From: Prosthecobacter sp.
GTDB taxonomy: Bacteria; Verrucomicrobiota; Verrucomicrobiia; Verrucomicrobiales; Verrucomicrobiaceae
Length of the DNA stretch: 64,000 nucleotides
Direction of reading: 5' to 3'
Assembly: GCA_019186985.1 (NCBI GenBank)
Contig: JABARQ010000013.1
Coordinates: 62,001-126,000 of the forward strand
Shown: positions 9,346 through 18,776 of the stretch, one piece after another
How positions within the stretch are numbered: the stretch's first letter is position 1
How the letters are laid out: every line of letters begins with the position of its first letter
Notes under the pieces: generated by a model
The model's input: the letters and a program-made list of their open reading frames with translations, nothing else
Told to the model about the DNA's origin: nothing
Databases searched by the model: none
Position numbers and translations under genes: made by a program

Positions 9346-10233
9346 ATGCCCAAGCTCGCCGCCTTTCCCAAAGCCTTCATGGTCGCTCTTTGCAAGGAGG
9401 GCACGATGACCGTGTCCGAGTGGATTCGTCTCGCCTCAACCCTCGATGTCCAGGGGCTGGAATGGTATGCGGGTTTCCTCGAAATGGCCGATGAAAAGAA
9501 CTGGCAGCGCTTCCGCAAGGAGGTGGAGGACACCGGCAAGGTGATTCCGATGATGTGCTGCTCGCCTGACTTCACCCATCCCGACGCCGCCTTCCGTGAC
9601 AAGGAGATCGCGAAGCAGAAGCGCTGGATCGACATGACGCACACGCTGGGTGGCGGCTATTGTCGAGTGCTGAGCGGTCAGCGCAGGCCTGAACTGAGCC
9701 TTGAGGAAGGTGTGAAGCTGGCGGCGGACTCCATCCACGCCTGTCTGCCCTATGCCCAGGAACGCGGGATCACGCTGATCCTGGAGAACCATTACAAGGA
9801 TGACTTCTGGGACTATCCGGAGTTTGCCCAGAAGATGGACGTCTTCTGCAGGTTGGTGGACGCCGTGGTTCATCCGAATTTCGGTGTGAACTACGACCCC
9901 TCGAACACCTACCTCGCAGGCGAGGATCCCATCGAACTGCTCAAGCGTGTATCCCATCGAGTGGTCACCATGCATGCCAGCGACCGTTATCTGGCGGAGG
10001 GCACCATCGAGGATCTGCGCAAGGAGGAGGGCGGCGCCCAGGGTTATGCCAAGCGTCTGCGTCACGGCGAGATCGGCAAGGGGCTGAATGACTACGACGC
10101 GATCTTCAGCGAGCTGAAGGGCAGGGGGTTCAACGGCTGGATCAGCATCGAGGACGGTGTGGACGGCATGGACCAGCTTGCCCGCAGCGTGGATTTCCTG
10201 AAGCGGAAGATCGCACAGCACTGGCCGGTTTGA
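9346..10233 (+). CDS. Sugar phosphate isomerase/epimerase (TIM barrel)
   Basis: This 295-residue protein of the xylose-isomerase-like TIM-barrel family keeps the usual metal-binding segments: ITLILENHY (Glu-Asn-His), FGVNYDPSN, VVTMHASDR and a terminal GWISIEDG. Unlike the paralogue at 627, its first Glu is intact, so an active metal enzyme acting on a sugar or cyclitol is likely. It has no signal peptide and is cytosolic. A 148-bp gap separates it from the DUF1553 gene, so it may have its own promoter, but it fits the same catabolic island. Substrate unknown. Confidence 0.85.
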   Translation: MPKLAAFPKAFMVALCKEGTMTVSEWIRLASTLDVQGLEWYAGFLEMADEKNWQRFRKEVEDTGKVIPMMCCSPDFTHPDAAFRDKEIAKQKRWIDMTHTLGGGYCRVLSGQRRPELSLEEGVKLAADSIHACLPYAQERGITLILENHYKDDFWDYPEFAQKMDVFCRLVDAVVHPNFGVNYDPSNTYLAGEDPIELLKRVSHRVVTMHASDRYLAEGTIEDLRKEEGGAQGYAKRLRHGEIGKGLNDYDAIFSELKGRGFNGWISIEDGVDGMDQLARSVDFLKRKIAQHWPV

Positions 10234-10336
10234 AGCGGCTGTCGGGCAAGGCAGGCATGGGCTTGAGCCCGTGAAGGTTCGAGGACCTGGCGGGCCGCTT
10301 TATGCGAACGATGGGTGTGCGGGCTGAAGCTCGACA

Positions 10337-11176
10337 CTACCTTGATCCGCGAACAACCTCGTCCAGAAACTTCCACAGCTCCAGCGTCGGCGGATCTTCC
10401 GGTCCGCCCAGGTCCGAGCTGATCGTTCCATGCGTCTTGCCTTCGGCGGCGACCACCCGGGCTTTGACGCCGGCTTCATGAAGCTTGGAGGCGAGCCAGT
10501 GCGCCTGCGTCTTTGTCGATTCACGCGAGGCGACATGCAGCAGCAGGAAGGGCGGGATGCCCTTGTCCTTTGCAACATAGGTGACGGGTGAAAACTCGCG
10601 CTGTTCCGCTTCGCCGGTGCCGAAGATGGAGGTGTAGTTCACCGCCGGCGTGTCACCGCCCTCCTTGAGGCGTTTGGGGATGTCGTAGGCGGACACATCC
10701 ACAGGCACGCAGCCCTTGAGGCAGTTCATCGGCACGCCTGCGGCCTTCAGGTAGCGGTCATCGGTGCAAAGCAGGGCCGCAAGATGCGCTCCGGCCGAGT
10801 GGCCCATGATCACGATCCTCTCAGGATCGCCACGATGCTCCGCCACATGATCGCGCACCCAGCGGACGCTTTGGGCGAGGTCGCTCATCATCTCCTTCAG
10901 GGTCACGGCCGGCACAAAGCGGTAGTTCACCGACACGAGCACAAAGCCCTTCTCCAAAAACGCCTGTGGCTTCTTCTGCAGCGAGGCCTTGTCACCGGCC
11001 TTCCATCCACCGCCGTGAATCCAGACGACGACCGGATGTTTTTCGCCCTGGGCGGGGGCGTGCACATCCAGCGCCTGCAGCTTGTCCTTCGCCTCGGTGT
11101 AAAACTGGTTTCTCGTCACCACCGGCTCGGCGGCGAAGGTGGAGACGGTGAGAAAGAGGGCGGTCAAAAAGCGCAT
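10337..11176 (-). CDS. Secreted alpha/beta hydrolase (esterase/lipase-like)
   Basis: This 279-residue protein has a signal peptide (MRFLTALFLTVSTFAAE), an oxyanion-hole HGGGWK at about 54-59 and the nucleophile elbow GHSAGAH with Ser127. A late His in GKTHGTIS probably completes the triad. This is the BD-FAE/carboxylesterase-like family, which often removes acyl groups from carbohydrates. I chose the ATG at 11176 because it starts the signal peptide. The longer upstream frame has no signal and looks non-coding. It converges with the TIM-barrel gene that ends at 10233. Confidence 0.85.
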   Translation of the reverse strand: MRFLTALFLTVSTFAAEPVVTRNQFYTEAKDKLQALDVHAPAQGEKHPVVVWIHGGGWKAGDKASLQKKPQAFLEKGFVLVSVNYRFVPAVTLKEMMSDLAQSVRWVRDHVAEHRGDPERIVIMGHSAGAHLAALLCTDDRYLKAAGVPMNCLKGCVPVDVSAYDIPKRLKEGGDTPAVNYTSIFGTGEAEQREFSPVTYVAKDKGIPPFLLLHVASRESTKTQAHWLASKLHEAGVKARVVAAEGKTHGTISSDLGGPEDPPTLELWKFLDEVVRGSR

Positions 11177-11446
11177 GAGACCGGTGAAACGCAGGCGCCT
11201 GCCGGATCTCTCAGCGTGGTTGGGTCCTCTGGACACATTGAAACATCCGGGAGTGCCGCACCAGGCTCCGTCACTTCTTTCCGCTGCCGGCAAGCTCATC
11301 CCATGTGAGGCATGGCCGACCTTGTCGGCATCGAGTTTCACGAGGCGGCCCCTTGCCGCCATGCGTCAGATTAAGAGCGCTGAATAGGTTGGGTGCCCTC
11401 CCTCCCGTGCATCGTCCTCGATAGGCGGAGAGGAGCGCTCCCCCAG
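11177..11446. other. Intergenic region without a clear gene
   Basis: This 270-bp stretch separates the secreted hydrolase start from the ECF42-like sigma factor stop. It holds a short perfect hairpin, GCCGAC-CTT-GTCGGC (about 11318-11332), and a GGAGCGCTCC palindrome near 11431. I see no coding frame with family support and no T-tailed terminator. Confidence 0.4.
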
Positions 11447-12706
11447 TCAGGATGCGAGGGCCTGGCTTTGCAGAAACTCGCGTTCCGCCTCGCAGGATGC
11501 CAGGTCGGCGGCGCGTTGGTAGGCGGCGCGGGCTGCTTCCGGCCGGCCGAGCCTGGCGATGAAGCTGGCGCGGATGGCGTGGTAAAGATGCTGCGTCTCG
11601 AGCGCGTGACGGTCGGGGATGCTGTCGAGGGCCTGCAGGCCGGCTTCGGGGCCGTGGACGCGCGCGAGGGCCACGCTGCGGTTCATGGCGACGACGGGCG
11701 TGGGCTTCAGATGCAGCAGCTGATCGTAGAAGCTCAAAATGCGCGGCCAGTCGGTGCTCGATTCATCGGCGGCGAGGCAGTGGCAGGCGGCGATGCCAGC
11801 CTCGAGATGATAGGGGCTGATCGTTTCGCCGCTGGAGGCCGCGCCGAGGGCGAGGATGCCGTCTTGAATGAGCGCCGCGTCCCACCGGCTGCGATCCTGA
11901 TGAGGCAGTCGCACGATCTCGCCCCCGGCGCCGATCCTTGCCTTCAAACGGGACGCGTTGAGGCACATGAGAGCGAGGAGGGCCTTGGTGGACGGCAGGG
12001 CGGTGTCGGGGTTTGCTGCGAGCAGGCGCACGAGGCGGATGGCTTCATGACAAAGCTCCTCGCGGATGAGGCGGTCGCCGGAGGAGGCCTTGTAGCCTTC
12101 GTTGAAGAGCAGGTAGAGGGCGGCAAGCACGCCGTCGAGCCGTCGGGGCAGCTCGGCGGCATCGGGCACGGCAAAGGGCAGTTGCAGATCGCGGATGAGC
12201 TGTCGGGCGCGCACGAGGCGCTTGGCGATGGCGGCCTCGCTGGTAAGGAAGGCCGCGCCGATCTCCGCCGGGCTCATGCCGCACACGGTGCGCAGGGCGA
12301 GCGCGAGCTGAGCCTCGATGGAGAGCTGTGGATGAAAGCAGACGAAGAGCATGCGCAGCGCGTCATCGGCAAGGCCGGGCCTGCCGGCGGGCTCCTCCCG
12401 TGTGAGCCATCGTTCCTGTTCTGCGGTGATCTGCGCCTCCTTGCGCTGCCAGGCCTGCTCGCGGCGCAAGGCGTCGAGCGCGAGGTTTTTCGCGGCCTGG
12501 GCAAGCCACGCGGCGGGATTTTCCGGAATGCCGCGGTAGGGCCAGGTTTGAAGCGCCCGCACCAGCGCCTCCTGCACGGCATCCTCGGCGAGCTGCAGCC
12601 GGTGCGTGCCGAGATGCGCCGCGAGCGTGGCGACGAGCCGCGCCCCTTCGCGGCGGAAGAGGTCATCCGCCACAAGGCCGGGGCTGCGCTCGGCGGACTG
12701 GCTCAT
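11447..12706 (-). CDS. ECF sigma factor of the ECF42-like group with C-terminal extension
   Basis: This 419-residue protein has sigma region 2 (about 15-85, QLAEDAVQEALVRAL and NPAAWLAQAAKNLALD) and region 4 (about 120-185, MSPAEIGAAFLTSEAAIAKRL). A long C-terminal helical, TPR-like extension of about 230 residues (DUF6596 type) follows, with LYLLFNEGY and PVVAMNRSVALARV. Sigma factors of this shape form the ECF42 group, which lacks a classical anti-sigma factor and lies beside DGPF/YCII genes. That is exactly the context here. It is the last gene of a minus-strand run and overlaps the SRPBCC gene by four bases. The signal it senses is unknown. Confidence 0.87.
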   Translation of the reverse strand: MSQSAERSPGLVADDLFRREGARLVATLAAHLGTHRLQLAEDAVQEALVRALQTWPYRGIPENPAAWLAQAAKNLALDALRREQAWQRKEAQITAEQERWLTREEPAGRPGLADDALRMLFVCFHPQLSIEAQLALALRTVCGMSPAEIGAAFLTSEAAIAKRLVRARQLIRDLQLPFAVPDAAELPRRLDGVLAALYLLFNEGYKASSGDRLIREELCHEAIRLVRLLAANPDTALPSTKALLALMCLNASRLKARIGAGGEIVRLPHQDRSRWDAALIQDGILALGAASSGETISPYHLEAGIAACHCLAADESSTDWPRILSFYDQLLHLKPTPVVAMNRSVALARVHGPEAGLQALDSIPDRHALETQHLYHAIRASFIARLGRPEAARAAYQRAADLASCEAEREFLQSQALAS

Positions 12707-13164
12707 GACTGCGTGTCTTCGGCAGGGGGGCCGCCTTCGACGAGCCGCGCCAGGTGCTGAAGCGACTCCTGCCAGCCGAGGTAGCAGGCTTCCTCGGGGA
12801 TCACCGCTGGCACGCCGGCCTGCGTGACGCTGAGCTCGGTGCCGCAGGACACGGCTTTCAGCTTCACCGTGACTTCAATCGTGCCGTGCAGGCCGGGGTC
12901 ATCGAAGACATCGGTGTAACGGAGCAGTTTGTTCGGCACGAGCTCAAGGTATTCGCCGCCGAAGGAATGGCCGCGGCCGCTGCTGAACTGCGTGAAGGCC
13001 ATCCTGAAGGTGCCGCCGACCTTCGGTTCGAGATGGAAGACCTTGCACAGGAAGCCGTCCGGCGGGAGCCAGCGGCAGAGCGCGTCGGGATCGAGGAAGG
13101 CCTTGTAGACCAGCTCGGGAGCCGCCTTGAGCACACGATGGAGGCGGATGGTGTGGGTGGGCAT
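12703..13164 (-). CDS. SRPBCC family (AHSA1-like) protein
   Basis: This 153-residue protein of the START/AHSA1 fold begins with the usual helper strand and loop (RLHRVLKAAPELVYKAFLD, then WLPPDGF) and ends with a helix containing GWQESLQHLARLVE. Such proteins bind hydrophobic ligands in a deep cavity and are frequent partners of ECF42-type sigma factors. The stop overlaps the sigma factor start (ATGA), so the two are translationally coupled. No enzymatic activity can be assigned. Confidence 0.85.
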   Translation of the reverse strand: MPTHTIRLHRVLKAAPELVYKAFLDPDALCRWLPPDGFLCKVFHLEPKVGGTFRMAFTQFSSGRGHSFGGEYLELVPNKLLRYTDVFDDPGLHGTIEVTVKLKAVSCGTELSVTQAGVPAVIPEEACYLGWQESLQHLARLVEGGPPAEDTQS

Positions 13165-13178
13165 GGGGGCGTGGCAGC

Positions 13179-13598
13179 TCAGGGTTGTTCGGGGACGGTG
13201 ACCATCCAGTGAATGCCAAAGCGGTCTGTCACCATGCCAAAGCAGGGCGACCAGAAGGTCCTGCCGATCGGCATGAAGGCATCTCCGCCATCGGCGAGGG
13301 CGGAGAAGACGCGTTTCGCCTCGGCTTCCGTCGGCAGGGTGAGTGACATGCAGTGCCCGTCCTCAGGCATCTGCTCCTTCATGCCGTCGGAGCCCATGAG
13401 CCTGCTCTCCCCGATGGTGAAGGACGCGTGCATCACCTTCTCATCCCAATGGGCCGGCAGCGGGCAGCTCGCAGGTTCAGGGTTGTCCTTGTAGCGCATG
13501 AGCATGCCAATCTCGGCGCCGAGATGCTGGCGGTAGTAGTCGAGCGCGGCCTCGCACCGGCCGGCAAAGAAGAGGTAGGGTTCAACGACGGGCTTCAT
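13179..13598 (-). CDS. VOC family (PhnB/glyoxalase-like) protein
   Basis: This 139-residue VOC-fold protein has the typical start MKPVVEPYLFFAGRCEAAL followed by DYYRQHLGAEIGML, and a C-terminal MVTDRFGIHWMV strand. PhnB-like proteins bind small molecules or antibiotics, or act as metal-dependent enzymes. The ATG at 13598 matches the family start. The upstream extension of the same frame is Arg/Pro/His-rich and is antisense noise from the neighbouring gene. It sits 14 bp upstream of the SRPBCC gene in the same run. Confidence 0.85.
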   Translation of the reverse strand: MKPVVEPYLFFAGRCEAALDYYRQHLGAEIGMLMRYKDNPEPASCPLPAHWDEKVMHASFTIGESRLMGSDGMKEQMPEDGHCMSLTLPTEAEAKRVFSALADGGDAFMPIGRTFWSPCFGMVTDRFGIHWMVTVPEQP

Positions 13599-13618
13599 GG
13601 GGGATGGGAGACGGAGGA

Positions 13619-14017
13619 TCAGGATTCCATGGCCTTCACGTCCGCCATGGGGCGGCAGAGGTTGGCGACGGGGCGCACCTCGATCTGGGCGCCGTGGGCG
13701 AGGATGGGACAGGCCTGGGCGAGCTTCACCGCCTCGTCCGTGGAAGCCACGGCCAGCAGAAAGTAGCCGGCGATGGCCTCCTTCGACTCGGCGAAGACGC
13801 CGTCGGTGACGAGGCTTTGCGCGCCGCTGACAAGCCTGCCTTCTTCCATCAGCGGCTGGGCGCCGCGGAGGATGCCCCTGCTTTGCAGGCCTTCCACCCA
13901 TCCATAAAACCCGGTCATGATGCGCTGCAGCTCCGCAGGCGAGAGACCGCTGTTCCAATGCGTGCCGCGGATGAGCAGCAGGTGCTCGCCGGTGGACTGT
14001 TGATGGTTCGGATTCAT
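13619..14017 (-). CDS. YCII/DGPF-domain protein, copy 1
   Basis: This 132-residue protein of the YCII-related (DGPF) family has EHLLLIRGTHWN at the start, a VTDGVFAESKEAIAGYFLL core and a C-terminal PILAHGAQIEVRPV strand. The canonical DGPF box is altered to DGVF here, whereas the neighbouring paralogue has DGPF. DGPF proteins are the signature neighbours of ECF42 sigma factors. Their biochemical role is unknown. The start overlaps the stop of the upstream paralogue by four bases, so the two are coupled. Confidence 0.85.
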   Translation of the reverse strand: MNPNHQQSTGEHLLLIRGTHWNSGLSPAELQRIMTGFYGWVEGLQSRGILRGAQPLMEEGRLVSGAQSLVTDGVFAESKEAIAGYFLLAVASTDEAVKLAQACPILAHGAQIEVRPVANLCRPMADVKAMES

Positions 14018-14403
14018 TCGGCGGGTGTTTCGTTCGTGTGCCGGTAGGCGGAGCCGCGCTCGGACTCCAGCGGCCGGATTTCAAAGGTCAAGCCATGCGG
14101 CAGCACCGGGTTCTGCGCCGCGATGGCCGCTGCGGCCTCAAGGCTCTCCGCAACGATGATCCAGTAGCCGCCGATGACCTCCTTGCCCTCGGCAAAGGGG
14201 CCGTCCATGCGGGTCCCCTCGCGGGTGACGAGCGCCGCGTCCATGGTGAGGCGCGAGCCAGGCTTGAAGACGCCCCTGGCGATGTTCGCCTCATACCAGG
14301 TGTAGAACTTCTCAATCGCCGCCTCGATGTCGGCCTTGTCGGAGCGGCTGTCCCACTGACCGCGTGAGAGCAGGAGGTAATCGTTGTTGGCGTGCGTGCT
14401 CAT
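14014..14403 (-). CDS. YCII/DGPF-domain protein, copy 2
   Basis: This 129-residue protein is a paralogue of the next gene downstream. It starts MSTHANNDYLLLSRGQWD, holds the box RMDGPFAEGKEVIGGYWII, and ends with VLPHGLTFEIRPLE. The start at 14403 is chosen because the family begins just before the YLLL strand. The track upstream of it lies inside the SRPBCC gene. The two adjacent YCII copies suggest a tandem duplication followed by divergence, possibly giving a heterodimer. They belong to the ECF42-like operon. Confidence 0.85.
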   Translation of the reverse strand: MSTHANNDYLLLSRGQWDSRSDKADIEAAIEKFYTWYEANIARGVFKPGSRLTMDAALVTREGTRMDGPFAEGKEVIGGYWIIVAESLEAAAAIAAQNPVLPHGLTFEIRPLESERGSAYRHTNETPAE

Positions 14404-14408
14404 GAGCT

Positions 14409-14948
14409 TCACTTCGCTGCGGGTGCGGTGACGAGCTTCGCCATGTCCGCGAGGCCTTTTTCGAATTCGGGCCCGCACATGGACTCGCAGTCCATCACGA
14501 GGCTGATCATCCTGGCGAGGAGGCCTTCATTCCTGCCATACATGGCCCAGGTGACGGTGGTTTTGCCGCCGTCGGACTTGAAGCGATAATCCACGGTGCT
14601 GACACCCTCCATCGGTTCCAGCCAGTCCATGCGCAGGCGGATGAGCTCGCCCGGCTTGCTCTCGGTGATGGTGGCCCTGCCCTTGCCGGTCTTGCCGCCC
14701 TCCCAGGTCGAGGCGGAGCCGACACCGGTTTCCGGCCCGAGGTACTCGACCCTGGCGCCGGGGTCCATTTTCAGCCAGGGGTTGAACTCGTTGAACTTCC
14801 GATGGCTGTTGAACCAGACAAACACAGCCTCCGGCGGCGCGGCGACCGTGATGCTGCGTTCAACGCGGAAATCCGGCGATTTCAACAGGGCTGCGGCGAT
14901 GAAGCCGAGGACGAGCATGGCAAAAACAATGAGGATCTTTTTGATCAT
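14409..14948 (-). CDS. Membrane-anchored SRPBCC family protein
   Basis: This 179-residue protein has an N-terminal hydrophobic segment (MIKKILIVFAMLVLGFIAAA) followed by an SRPBCC ligand-binding domain: VERSITVAAPPEAVFVWF, FNEFNPWLKMDPGA, EPMEGVSTVDYRF. The first segment can be a membrane anchor or an uncleaved signal. The family is often described as polyketide cyclase-like, but no activity is proven. It is the second SRPBCC gene in the sigma-factor operon and is five bases from the YCII gene. Unlike the SRPBCC protein at 12703, it probably works at the membrane. Confidence 0.85.
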   Translation of the reverse strand: MIKKILIVFAMLVLGFIAAALLKSPDFRVERSITVAAPPEAVFVWFNSHRKFNEFNPWLKMDPGARVEYLGPETGVGSASTWEGGKTGKGRATITESKPGELIRLRMDWLEPMEGVSTVDYRFKSDGGKTTVTWAMYGRNEGLLARMISLVMDCESMCGPEFEKGLADMAKLVTAPAAK

Positions 14949-14993
14949 GGCGGCGGAGGGGTTGGCTGTGGGGTGAAGGGGGGAAATGCGCTG

Positions 14994-15479
14994 CTAGCCG
15001 CGCACCGCCGCCTCGATGGCGGCGACATCAATCCTGGACATGGTCATCATGGCCTCAAAGGCTCGCCTGGCGATGGAGCGGTCCTGATGGGTGAAGGCCT
15101 GGGTCAGCACGACCGGCGTGATCTGCCAATGCAACCCCCATTTGTCCCTGCACCAGCCGCACTCGCTCGCTTCGCCTCCGTTGCCGATGATGGCGTTCCA
15201 GTAACGGTCGGTCTCGGCCTGGTCCTGAGTGGCGACCTGGAATGAGAACGCCCAGTTGTGCGGCACCCCGGGCCCGCCGTTGAGCCCGATGCAAGGGATG
15301 CCCATCACGGTGAACTCCACCGTCAGCACCTCGCCTTCCTTGCATGACGGATTATCGGCCGGCGCGCGATGAACCGCGCCGACGGTGCAATCAGGAAACG
15401 TCTCGGCGTAGAAGCGCGCGGCAGCCTCGGCATCGTGATCAAACCAGAGGCAGATGGTGTTTTTGGCGGCCGGGCTCAT
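14994..15479 (-). CDS. VOC family protein, YjdN/PhnB-like (PF06983 type)
   Basis: This 161-residue protein starts MSPAAKNTICLWFDHDAEAA and continues with ARFYAETFPDCTVGAV. It also has FTVMGIPCIGLNGGP and CGWCRDKWGLHWQITP. This is the pattern of YjdN/3-demethylubiquinone-methyltransferase-like VOC proteins, which are a fold family and not true methyltransferases. It is the second VOC copy in the operon and differs strongly from the one at 13179, so a recent duplication is unlikely. Confidence 0.87.
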   Translation of the reverse strand: MSPAAKNTICLWFDHDAEAAARFYAETFPDCTVGAVHRAPADNPSCKEGEVLTVEFTVMGIPCIGLNGGPGVPHNWAFSFQVATQDQAETDRYWNAIIGNGGEASECGWCRDKWGLHWQITPVVLTQAFTHQDRSIARRAFEAMMTMSRIDVAAIEAAVRG

Positions 15480-15511
15480 GGGTGTGGGGTGCGATGAAGT
15501 TCGGGCATCGC

Positions 15512-16042
15512 TCAGCGGCGGGTGAAGATGACCGGAGGGCCGCAGGGGGCGCTTTTTCCGTCCTTCCAGGAGACGCCTTCAAGCCGGAAGTGGTCTGCAT
15601 CGAGGAAGGTGTAGGTGGCTCCATGCATGTGCATCTCCTTGGCCGCATTCAGGCCGGGGGTCGGGGCGAGATCAAAGGTCAGCGAGTCGGCCGTTTGTTT
15701 CACCAGCTTCATCCGCGGCTGGTTCCGCAGCATGCAATAGTGCGTCATGGCGAGCCTGCCGTTGATGTCGTGATAGACGCTCAGCATCTCCATCGGAGTG
15801 CCTTCGGCGAAACGCTCCTCGATCACCGAGCCTCCCGCGATGAGCCTGAACTCAGTCTTCATCGTCCCCATCTCGGGCGATTCGCCCGACCACCTGCCCA
15901 CCAGCGACTTCATGCGCTCAAAGGCTGCGGATCCCTGGTAGGGGGGCATGTCCGCGCATGCCGTGTGTTTCGTTGGTGAGCTCTGGCACGAGGTCAGAAC
16001 CGCCAGGGCGGCGAGGGTGAGGAAATGAGGAGGTTTGAACAT
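15512..16042 (-). CDS. DUF1579-like lipoprotein
   Basis: This 176-residue protein has a lipoprotein signal (MFKPPHFLTLAALAVLTSC, lipid Cys19) and a DUF1579-type domain with FERMKSLVGRWSGES, GGSVIEERF and a late GATYTFLDADHFRLEG. It is probably exported and lipid-anchored, with a lipocalin-like barrel. It is the first gene of the minus-strand run that ends in the sigma factor, with a 235-bp gap upstream that should hold the operon promoter. A ligand-sensing role for the pathway is inference. Confidence 0.75.
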   Translation of the reverse strand: MFKPPHFLTLAALAVLTSCQSSPTKHTACADMPPYQGSAAFERMKSLVGRWSGESPEMGTMKTEFRLIAGGSVIEERFAEGTPMEMLSVYHDINGRLAMTHYCMLRNQPRMKLVKQTADSLTFDLAPTPGLNAAKEMHMHGATYTFLDADHFRLEGVSWKDGKSAPCGPPVIFTRR

Positions 16043-16277
16043 GGGCGCGTGGGTTGAGGGTCGATTGCCGGGGGGACCCCGTCAGAACATCGACGAACGG
16101 GGGGGCTGCTGCGAGGACAGGAAAGTAAAAAAGTTTCGTGCCCCGCGATTCGCCAGGCATCACGAGGCTGGTCCAGGGTGGGAATGCAACCAGGACGTTA
16201 GGCATCAGGGCGGCAGGACGAGGCTGGTGGAAGTGTGCTTGAGTCCTCCGGCTGATCCGCAGCCGGGACCGCCATGC
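16043..16277. other. Intergenic region upstream of the ECF42-like operon
   Basis: This 235-bp gap lies upstream of the first gene of the sigma-factor run. It should contain the operon promoter, but I cannot identify a convincing one by eye. A CGTCGA-like word on the minus strand (16090-16095) is discussed under rejected items. No small gene is supported. Confidence 0.4.
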
Positions 16278-18017
16278 TCACGGCTTCTTCTTCCCGCTGC
16301 TGATGAATTCATCACGCGTGACAAAGCCGTTCCTGTCGGCGTCCATCCTGGTGAACCTGGCCCCGGCTTCAGACTTGTCTCCTCCCTGGCCGGCGAGGTA
16401 TTCATCGACCGTGAGCCTTGGCTTGCCGGGGTAGAGCCTGTCGTAGCGTTTGTCACGGGGTTCGTTAGGATCGTACTTGGGCTTGGACACGCCGGAGCCG
16501 GTCTTCTGCACGCTTTTGCCGCTGCGTGGAGGCTGGAAGTCGCTGCCGACCGGGGGCAGGTGCTTTTTCAGGCTGGCGACCACCTCCGCATGGTCGGGAT
16601 GGGTGGCGAGGTTGACGGTTTCATAAGGGTCGTTCTGCTCGTCGTACAGTTCGATGAAGCCGATGGTCCCGGCATTGCGCTTGCGCCAGAAGGTGCAGCG
16701 CCAGCGTTCGGTGCGGATGCTGTAGCCCATGAGGCTGCCGCCATGATCCTTGGAGGACTTGGGGTAGATGCTGATCGCGGGCTTCTGCATCGGCGCGTCC
16801 GGATTGTCGAGGTAGGGCTTGAGGCTCCTGCCGGCGAGCCCCTGGGGGATGGGCAGGCCGCAGACCTCGGCCAGCGTGGGATAGACGTCGACAAACTCAA
16901 CCGGTGCAGGACAATGCCGACCTGTGGTCGCACTTTTGGGCAGCGCAATGAGCAACGGCGCACGCGCGGCGAGTTCAAAGTTGGTGTGCTTGTGCCAGAG
17001 GCCGTGGTCACCGAGCTGCCAGCCATGATCCCCCCAGAGCACGATGACGGTGTTGTCGGCGAGCCCCTCGCTGTCGAGCGCGTCCAGCAGGCGGCCGACC
17101 TGGGCGTCGGTGAAGCTGATGCAGGCGTTGTAGCCATGGCGCAGTTTTTTGGCGAAATCAGCGGGGATTGGATTTTCCTTCGGCGTCCCCGGATAGGCGT
17201 GAAGCTCGCCGTTGTCGTGTCCGACAAAACCCGGCGTGCCTTCAGGGAACTTGTCCGTGCCGGGCAGGGGAATGGCATCAGGATCATGCATGTCCCAGTA
17301 CTTCTTCGGGGCGACAAACGGCAGGTGGGGCTTCACAAAGCCGACGCCGAGGAAGAAGGGTTTTCCAGCCACCTTGAGCGCGGCAAGACGCTTCACGGCC
17401 TCGGCGGCGACCGCGCCGTCGGGCAGCTGCTCATCAGCCTTGGGGCTCACCTCGAAGGCAGGGCCCTGCTTGGGCTTCTTGCCCGGCCTGCCGCCTGAAG
17501 CCACGGCAAGAGGCCTGGCAAACTCGCCTGGCACGCCTTCAAAGCGGGTGACGGTGTGCTTCGTCCAGTCCTTCTCATCCACGCTGACCATCTCCCCGCC
17601 GGGGAACCAGCGAGGCTCGCTCCACGAAGGGCCGTCTTCAAAGCCGTGATGCTCGATCTTGCCCAGGCCGGCGGTGTGGTAGCCGCAGGCGCGGAAGTGC
17701 TGAGGCAGGGTCACGCAGTCCGGCACGGCGTCGCGAAAATGCGTGTTGAGGTCCCAGACCTTGGTGGTGTCCGGCCGCAGGCCGGTGAGGATGGCGGTGC
17801 GCGAAGGGCTGCACACGGCCTGCGCGCAGTAGGCCCTGTCGAAGACAACACCGCGTGCGGCGAGCCGGTCGATGTTAGGCGTCCTTGCGTGCCTCACGCC
17901 GTAGCAGCCGATGTCAGGCCGCAGGTCGTCCACGGCGATGAAAAGAACGTTGGGCCGCTGCTGCGCGACGGCGGGCAGGCTGACCATGGCGAGCAGGCAG
18001 GCGAGGGCGTGTTTCAT
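16278..18017 (-). CDS. Secreted sulfatase with C-terminal EF-hand
   Basis: This 579-residue secreted sulfatase has a signal peptide (MKHALACLLAMVSLPAVAQ), metal-binding Asp30/Asp31 and the CSPSR site. Its Cys69 should be converted to formylglycine by a maturase located elsewhere. KPHLPFVAPKKYWDM and DHGWQLGDHGLWHK fit iduronate-2-sulfatase-like enzymes, so a sulfated polysaccharide is the probable substrate. Near the C-terminus DADRNGFVTRDE is a good EF-hand loop that may bind calcium. I chose the ATG at 18017 for the signal peptide. It follows the GDSL gene by 69 bp on the same strand. Confidence 0.9.
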   Translation of the reverse strand: MKHALACLLAMVSLPAVAQQRPNVLFIAVDDLRPDIGCYGVRHARTPNIDRLAARGVVFDRAYCAQAVCSPSRTAILTGLRPDTTKVWDLNTHFRDAVPDCVTLPQHFRACGYHTAGLGKIEHHGFEDGPSWSEPRWFPGGEMVSVDEKDWTKHTVTRFEGVPGEFARPLAVASGGRPGKKPKQGPAFEVSPKADEQLPDGAVAAEAVKRLAALKVAGKPFFLGVGFVKPHLPFVAPKKYWDMHDPDAIPLPGTDKFPEGTPGFVGHDNGELHAYPGTPKENPIPADFAKKLRHGYNACISFTDAQVGRLLDALDSEGLADNTVIVLWGDHGWQLGDHGLWHKHTNFELAARAPLLIALPKSATTGRHCPAPVEFVDVYPTLAEVCGLPIPQGLAGRSLKPYLDNPDAPMQKPAISIYPKSSKDHGGSLMGYSIRTERWRCTFWRKRNAGTIGFIELYDEQNDPYETVNLATHPDHAEVVASLKKHLPPVGSDFQPPRSGKSVQKTGSGVSKPKYDPNEPRDKRYDRLYPGKPRLTVDEYLAGQGGDKSEAGARFTRMDADRNGFVTRDEFISSGKKKP

Positions 18018-18086
18018 GCAGGGGGCAGGAACGCCGGCCCCGGAAGGAAATAGCAGGGAACTTGAGGGGCGTGCCATGGCGTCCGG

Positions 18087-18776
18087 CTACCGGGCCTGAG
18101 CCAGGATCTTCCCGATGGCGTCCGCGACCTGGCCGGCGAGCAGGGAGGAGCCTTCGGCCGTGAAATGCACGTCGTTGGGCTTCTGAACCCTGGCTGTCTG
18201 CGGCGTGATGAAGCCGTTGAGGTCATTGACCGCCACTCCGGTCTCCTTCATGACCTTCAGCGCGGCGGTGTTGTAGGATTCAATGCTTCCAAAGCGGCGG
18301 GTGGGCGAGATGACGCCGTTGTTAGGCACGGGGGTGGTGGTGGCGAAAATCAGGCGGGCTCCCGTCGCCTGCATCTGGCGGACGAGTTCGCGAAGATTCT
18401 TTTCATACACGTCGGGAGGGGAATGTCGGATGCCTTCAGGGGGAAGCTTGGCGTCATGGAGCCCGAAGTTGAAATGGATCACGTCCCATTTTTGATCTCC
18501 CAGCCAGGACTTCAGATGATTGAGCCCGTTGCCGGTGGAGCTGCAGTTGGTGGGCGGCCGGTGGACGTTCGCCTTTCCGGCCAGAAGTTCACGCACAGGC
18601 AGGGTGTAGCCCATGGAGATCGAATCGCCGATGATCAGCACCCTCGGCAGTCCCGGCACATCCCGGACCGGCGGGAAAACGGGATCGGCCGCCCGGCCCG
18701 CGGGTTTTGATGGTGTGTCCATCGCACAGGTGATGCCGGCGCAGAGGCCGGCAAGGAGGAGCAGCTTGGGATTCAT
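18087..18776 (-). CDS. Secreted SGNH/GDSL hydrolase
   Basis: This 229-residue exported protein starts [20 protein letters not shown]. Block I is [10 protein letters not shown] with the nucleophile Ser. A block-III-like NFGLHD and the terminal [11 protein letters not shown] with the catalytic Asp/His pair follow. The family deacetylates or deacylates polysaccharides and glycans. Its place just upstream of the sulfatase suggests cooperation on a decorated polysaccharide. The start at 18776 is set by the signal peptide. The longer upstream frame runs through the divergent promoter region. Confidence 0.85.

Follow-up and report, generated by a model that had tools for sequence, protein, structure and literature searches.

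Extracytoplasmic function (ECF) sigma factors of group ECF42 carry a tetratricopeptide repeat (TPR) extension of about 200 residues that is essential, and genes for YCII proteins are their conserved neighbours; regulation through protein contact has been proposed for them (PMC8999054). Binding of a ligand or a protein to the TPR part is thought to be inhibitory (PMC9023288). In S. meliloti, the ECF42 factor RpoE10 induces glyoxalase-like and hydrophobic-ligand-binding proteins, and the promoters listed for it read, on our own inspection of the sequences, TGTCGG-N17-CGTC (PMC6180224). These papers, like the others cited below, are quoted from extracts. By title, none of the publications listed by searches of one library deals with ECF42 in Verrucomicrobia or describes the operon considered here. 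This operon lies at positions 11447–16042 of a window of 64,000 nucleotides from Prosthecobacter sp. (assembly GCA_019186985.1, contig JABARQ010000013.1, positions 62,001 to 126,000 of the forward strand); all coordinates below are positions in that window. It ends in the gene of an ECF42-type sigma factor and, with a probability of about 0.7, represents a self-contained, positively autoregulated ECF42 regulon packed in one operon.

The operon consists of eight co-directional genes on the minus strand (16042–11447), all of them open reading frames (ORFs) with the limits given in the original prediction, which had been made from the sequence alone. From the upstream end, they encode a predicted lipoprotein with an LTSC lipobox (LIPO, 15512..16042), a VOC protein of the PhnB/3-dmu-9_3-mt type (VOCa, 14994..15479; Pfam PF06983, 6.5e-46), an SRPBCC protein of the Polyketide_cyc2 type with one N-terminal hydrophobic, presumed membrane, segment (SRPTM, 14409..14948; PF10604, 1.3e-12), two YCII proteins of subfamilies A and B (YCIIa, 14014..14403, motif DGPFAEGKE, and YCIIb, 13619..14017, motif DGVFAESKE; PF03795, 7.4e-10 and 5e-10 for the pair), a YjdN-like VOC protein (VOCb, 13179..13598; PF06983, 4.2e-10, and NCBIfam scan), an AHSA1-type SRPBCC protein (AHSA1, 12703..13164; PF08327, 7.4e-29) and the sigma factor (11447..12706). 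The start of YCIIa is most likely 14403 rather than an upstream GTG at 14478. In the same order, the intergenic gaps are 32, 45, 5, −4, 20, 14 and −4 nt, all at most 45 nt; four-base overlaps, announced as ‘several’, thus number two. A simple scan of the minus strand between 11000 and 16500 found no terminator-like or sigma-70-like sites. A predicted ECF42 promoter on the same strand (16092..16119) precedes LIPO, with TGTCCT at 16119–16114, a 16-nt spacer including a run of seven C, and TTCGTC at 16097–16092, and ends 49 nt before the LIPO start.

The sigma factor contains the Pfam domains PF04542 (sigma2) and PF08281 (sigma4) over cut-off, followed by PF20239 (DUF6596) at residues 189–290 (1.4e-34). 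The superfamily model TIGR02937 is also above cut-off, the sole such model among the 25 of 33 NCBIfam matches listed, and solved ECF factors are matched by the sigma profile over positions ∼40–179. The structure model (mean pLDDT 86.5) comprises a sigma part and an all-helical repeat C-terminal half with helices to the end, for which the top PDB matches are TPR proteins, all of them weak (best E 2e-3, none at 0.001). Such a long C-terminal extension had been foreseen. A SnoaL family, which marks ECF41 and ECF56, was absent from the Pfam scan of the sigma factor at E ≤ 0.01, and no anti-sigma domain appeared in Pfam or NCBIfam scans of the eight operon proteins. Upstream of the operon, the promoter has the form TGTC-N20-CGTC, with N19 in most relatives and, by our inspection, in the S. 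meliloti promoters. On sequence criteria, the ECF domains, the TPR-like extension, the YCII neighbours, the lack of an anti-sigma domain among the operon proteins and the TGTC/CGTC promoter place the locus in ECF42. Two sigma homologues of relatives are apparently broken or shortened (G028:C168:64286-65029 and G024:C502:4558-5676); they comprise two pieces matching residues 12–95 and 251–416, and one has an internal TGA.

Homologous loci were surveyed around the best 80 of 287 confirmed sigma homologues, taken from named genomes, mostly Verrucomicrobiaceae, Prosthecobacter and other Verrucomicrobia. Genes of the relatives were called with a codon-usage script and classed by profiles grown from the window proteins; profile matches below 60 bits were left out of the counts, and a few gene starts were called incorrectly (L042, L063), so that some distances are shifted. 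Among the 48 loci having 3 kb on both sides, YCII genes occur in 47 and two or more of them in 19; any VOC gene is found in 28, SRPTM in 24, AHSA1 in 22, LIPO in 13 and the full doubled set in three. When sigma identity is at least 80% and 3 kb are available upstream (10 loci), two or more YCII genes, SRPTM and LIPO are always present, AHSA1 and any VOC occur in seven loci each, and the full doubled set in three. At identities of at least 63%, again with 3 kb upstream, the 34 loci yield YCII in all, SRPTM in 27, LIPO in 23 and the full doubled set in seven; below 63%, with 3 kb on both sides, YCII is seen in 26 of 27 loci and LIPO in none. Over all 80 loci, contig ends included, the figures are 71 for YCII, 23 for LIPO and seven for the full doubled set, and B-type YCII genes are present in 68 by our own count. 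Collectively, this indicates that YCII is a near-constant partner of the sigma factor and that the closest relatives all keep LIPO and SRPTM. The other cargo is an accordion of small ligand-binding families that varies between loci. Chance does not account for the gene cluster, as its families are found again next to homologous sigma genes in the survey of 80 loci. The domain hits and the YCII counts bear out the proposed ECF42 type with YCII/DGPF partners, and the idea of a single module is upheld by the same counts and by the family promoter at the head of the operon. The exact gene set, for which a neighbourhood survey had been suggested, holds for YCII and not for the doubled complement; absence of the YCII, VOC and SRPBCC genes from homologous operons, named in advance as refuting the module, is practically not seen for YCII and partial for the others.

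Twenty representatives of unclassed or doubtful families in these loci correspond in Pfam to further VOC proteins, DUF1428, DUF899, GyrI-like, TfoX_N and DUF2200 proteins, a third YCII, TetR, and five proteins without a family. In seven loci (L073, L074, L076, L077, L078, L084 and L097), a gene of the TetR cluster, whose identity was checked in Pfam for one member, stands 18–35 nt before the sigma gene, and the promoter site is located between the sigma gene and YCII-YCII-VOC-SRPTM genes. This location indicates that the motif tracks the cargo. The seven loci seem to constitute a second ECF42 type, with the sigma factor under TetR control and the cargo under the sigma factor.

The promoter consensus of the family, TGTCCT-N15-TTCGTC followed by G(T/A), heads many operons. 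Over the 80 loci, the exact TGTCCT/TTCGTC pattern is found 50 times with 15 nt between its elements and 0–2 times with any other spacing from 8 to 23, and controls with the pattern backwards or in swapped order give 0–1 sites each. A looser pattern finds 63 sites in 54 of the loci, 60 of the same length; by our own count, 54 of the 63 start at most 150 nt before a predicted gene, and among the nine more distant ones several are plainly chance and at least two result from wrong start calls. The N16 spacer of the window is shared with one surveyed locus (L096). TTGAA is conserved six bases after TTCGTC and an A/T-rich stretch precedes TGTCCT, which may represent start-site context or the site of a further regulator.

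Across 48 genomes of the genus, the exact sites number 65, versus 17 for the backwards pattern. Twenty of the 65 were fetched, a non-random sample picked by eye, mostly off operon heads and from multi-site genomes. A cargo-family gene starts within 100 nt of the site in 15 of the 20 stretches (AHSA1 in five, YCII in five, a VOC-led cluster in three, RibD_C and LIPO in one each). Ten proteins from eight stretches were checked in Pfam: nine belong to the expected family and a putative DoxX-like protein has no match; LIPO was recognized by homologue search and the others from the appearance of their translations. Of the 15 sites, nine (five YCII, three AHSA1, one RibD_C) lie on another contig than the sigma homologues or tens of kb from them, and a further five (three VOC-led, two AHSA1) have such a homologue at a distance of up to about 4 kb. 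The site before LIPO (G007, L165), away from sigma, was rejected as a distant target: the contig ends ∼90 nt past the gene, so that a broken operon may begin here. As the same promoter precedes YCII and AHSA1 genes far from sigma in relatives, sigma factor and cargo appear to form one regulon. The layout of the operon, the architecture of the sigma factor, and the conserved promoter with its recurrence before the same families can be read directly from the DNA of the window and its relatives.

Paired YCII, VOC and SRPBCC genes had been noticed from the outset, and two of each are indeed present; they belong to different subfamilies instead of being recent duplicates. YCIIa is 29% identical to YCIIb, and a FastTree phylogeny with midpoint rooting puts the two in separate clades (26 and 75 of 106 tips, support 0.82 and 0.895; the remaining five tips are the third YCII), which rejects a recent tandem duplication. 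The DGPF motif is kept in all 26 members of subfamily A, and subfamily B is variable at the third residue, most often reading DGVF. Both proteins match PDB 1s7i (PA1349), at 3.9e-6 and 1.2e-4. For VOC and SRPBCC, recent tandem duplication is rejected by differing Pfam models and scores, the tree covering the YCII family: the VOC proteins match PF06983 at 6.5e-46 versus PF06983/PF00903 at 1e-10 to 1e-8, and the best models of the SRPBCC proteins are PF10604 versus PF08327. VOCa, in addition, matches PDB 1u69 at 1.1e-75.

In the proposed mechanism, the sigma factor, encoded last, would guide RNA polymerase to the promoter before LIPO and thereby raise its own level together with that of seven cargo proteins. 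Its TPR extension would be the control element, and B-type YCII would be the most likely binding partner of this extension, perhaps loaded with a small molecule. The cargo (two SRPBCC, two VOC, two YCII and the exported calycin-barrel lipoprotein) would consist of small ligand-binding proteins or enzymes acting on both sides of the inner membrane, with LIPO and the SRPTM domain outside it and the remaining cargo in the cytosol; their common task would be to bind, modify or sequester some compound of reactive or hydrophobic nature. Autoactivation, YCII as partner and the role in detoxification are what we infer from these features; the ‘ligand sensing and detoxification’ of the original prediction has the same standing. 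In the source genome (5.88 Mb, 55 contigs, 96% complete), DUF6596 is matched once and YCII twice at E ≤ 0.001, all inside the operon. The sigma factor is probably autoregulated there, with its own operon as the only evident target.

Several observations weigh against an autoregulated regulon. To our knowledge, no ligand or enzyme activity has been described for any of the eight proteins. The looser promoter pattern is missing from 26 of the 80 loci, some at a contig end and others with full flanks, and five of the 20 fetched stretches are devoid of a cargo gene. The N16 copy of the window, where nearly all relatives have N15, may be weaker, or the run of seven C may hide a base-count error. 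In the source genome, pattern searches found no other convincing promoter site: two other N14–16 sites fall inside long ORFs, and a one-mismatch pattern, not read in context, gives three sites versus three backwards, so that a wider regulon was discarded. Finally, autoactivation is not general, since in S. meliloti the YCII gene that accompanies RpoE10 was not raised by this factor (PMC6180224) and the sigma genes of the TetR-type loci are not behind the site.

LIPO and SRPTM, described at the outset as an exported lipoprotein and a membrane-anchored SRPBCC, are a conserved pair, both being present in the 10 close loci with at least 3 kb upstream. LIPO homologues exist in 20 of the 48 genus genomes, in G009 only as weak fragments. 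A simple pattern recognizes a lipobox in LIPO itself and in 19 of its 23 homologues, two of the 23 being cut short, which argues for export. Among 22 LIPO members, no Pfam match has an E-value below 0.04 and no family is common to more than five; no sequence match in the PDB is found at E 1. DUF1579 or another named family, considered from the look of the sequence, was not borne out by the Pfam scan. The placing of LIPO is thus that of its predicted fold, a signal helix and a calycin-like ten-strand barrel (pLDDT 84.9, 22-row alignment). The nearest solved folds are the spirocyclases OlmO and OssO of polyketide synthesis (Z 15.4 and 14.9), followed by nitrobindins, which bind haem through a conserved His, at Z about 14 (3ia8, Z 14.0), a similarity of fold only, and the anti-sigma factor RsfG (7qh3; Foldseek E 2.6e-5, TM 0.48; Z 11.6 over 115 residues). 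In SRPTM, a basic N-terminal stretch precedes the single hydrophobic segment, so that, by the positive-inside rule, the domain should face outwards. Near the C-terminus, 32 of 40 SRPTM proteins of relatives have a C-x(2-3)-[MIV]CG motif, a possible disulphide or metal site in this domain predicted to face outwards.

It is tempting to propose a sensory role for the envelope pair: LIPO and SRPTM would bind an outside compound and pass their state to the cytosolic sigma factor, which in this way would respond to the envelope, and YCII proteins would be mere effectors. The constancy of the pair in all 10 close loci speaks for this, as does the resemblance of LIPO to RsfG, the anti-sigma factor of a C-terminally extended ECF sigma factor (7qh3; PMC7730460). 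Yet direct contact with a cytosolic sigma factor is impossible for a lipidated periplasmic protein, RsfG is outscored by spirocyclases and nitrobindins as a relative of LIPO, and the LIPO gene stands behind a sigma-type promoter, as expected of an output. LIPO is, moreover, confined to 23 of the 80 loci (13 of the 48 with 3 kb on both sides); most surveyed ECF42 loci lack it, and it is therefore unneeded for ECF42 control. Sensing by the pair is thus unlikely. Quite improbable is also a combined scheme, a Prosthecobacter-type envelope arm in which LIPO and SRPTM, the latter with a C-x(3)-C motif, would capture an outside hydrophobic compound and relay it inward, where loaded YCII would gate the sigma factor via the TPR; we know of no ECF factor with such a ligand-relay route.

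The spirocyclases as best structural relatives of LIPO suggest another function, namely a small metabolic pathway for ring closure, epimerization or cleavage of a natural product, its expression timed by the sigma factor, hence synthesis and not detoxification. SRPBCC and VOC folds do include enzymes for such reactions. However, a shared fold is no proof of function, the composition of the cargo changes between loci, unlike that of an ordered pathway, and no scaffold-making gene was noticed beside the operon in the ORF list of 9500–18500, so that a pathway is doubtful. That the genes are together by chance or transcribed separately, the sigma factor controlling something else, would agree with the varying order and content of the cargo and with a window promoter one base off the family spacing. 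Against this stand the family promoter at the operon head and its presence at distant sites in relatives, where it precedes genes of the same families, as well as the translational overlaps, the short gaps and the scan of 11000–16500, free of minus-strand terminator-like or sigma-70-like sites; fortuitous assembly or separate transcription is very improbable. The evidence as a whole favours an ECF42 regulon in a single operon, most likely autoactivated and equipped with an envelope pair specific to its lineage.

Two genes on the same strand flank the operon, both named by the look of their translations and taken as outside it: a sulfatase-like gene (16278–18077) lies 235 nt before LIPO, and after sigma follows a gene of alpha/beta-hydrolase appearance (10337–11362). 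A 455-aa ORF on the plus strand (11393–12760) was dropped as an antisense artefact of high GC.

ECF42 factors are widespread, and a compact operon uniting sigma factor, likely partner and cargo behind an exact promoter consensus makes the questions of their signal and of the role of their YCII, VOC and SRPBCC targets testable. With so strict a promoter, prediction of ECF42 regulons in related genomes should be feasible, and the conserved envelope pair hints at the place where the cell may encounter the compound.

Relatives of the sigma factor also occur on plasmids, in 251 of 72,556 records; in 132 of these the match covers 80% of the query or more. Eight regions were chosen for reading from the 40 matches listed, and seven contain YciI or DGPF genes near the sigma relative. 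They belong to Rhizobium, Paraburkholderia, Streptomyces and Roseibium (the latter with SRPBCC and DoxX in addition), Pseudomonas aeruginosa (two YciI, four VOC), Leptolyngbya (two DGPF, VOC) and Calothrix (one DGPF, one glyoxalase); the region of Pseudomonas sp. JS425 has none. A 27-nt TGTC...TTCGTC site lies about 37 nt upstream of the Roseibium SRPBCC-DoxX pair, and looser TGTC...CGTC sites precede YciI genes of Roseibium and Paraburkholderia, all read without a chance control; the pattern was not found in the P. aeruginosa, Leptolyngbya, Streptomyces and Calothrix stretches (four of the eight). These sites are suggestive of a promoter type that may reach other phyla. Many plasmids of Klebsiella, Escherichia and Acinetobacter carry a fragment matching sigma residues 238–387 only, mostly annotated DUF6596 (e.g. 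H23-H39; L147). In Pseudomonas sp. JS425, the sigma copy is longer and is flanked by two copies of IS6100, with sul1 and intI1 nearby.

Among described systems, RpoE10 is similar in its TPR extension, its adjoining YCII gene, its glyoxalase-like and hydrophobic-ligand-binding targets and the TGTC ... CGTC build of its promoter. Unlike what is proposed for the window operon, its targets form separate operons and the YCII-sigma operon is not raised by the sigma factor; the extract of its account (section 12) names no lipoprotein or membrane-anchored SRPBCC (PMC6180224). By their published description, Sven_0747, Sven_4377 and Sven_7131 of Streptomyces venezuelae and ECF-10 of Pseudomonas putida likewise have a TPR extension of about 200 residues, reported as essential, and a YCII neighbour (PMC8999054). 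The P. aeruginosa plasmid p201330-IMP has a cluster of similar content (sigma-YciI-YciI-NTF2-VOC x4-MATE), with two YCII genes, several VOC genes and a DUF6596-type sigma factor 45% identical to that of the window over 89% of the latter; it differs by the sigma gene in first place, an NTF2-like protein and a MATE exporter, and no lipoprotein or SRPBCC is annotated. In the SigG1-RsfG system (ECF56) of Streptomyces tsukubaensis, a C-terminally extended ECF sigma factor is also co-transcribed with a calycin-like protein, but the extension is SnoaL_2 and not TPR, and RsfG binds the sigma factor directly whereas LIPO is predicted to be exported (PMC7730460). A Caulobacter paper that combines SRPBCC and ECF sigma factor terms (PMC4551563) is, from its extract, unrelated. 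The idea of a regulon is therefore not new, the glyoxalase-like and hydrophobic-ligand-binding targets of RpoE10 being already known (PMC6180224), and VOC and SRPBCC genes may already figure in published lists of ECF42 neighbourhoods; new here are the conserved envelope pair, the exact promoter and the sigma-last layout.

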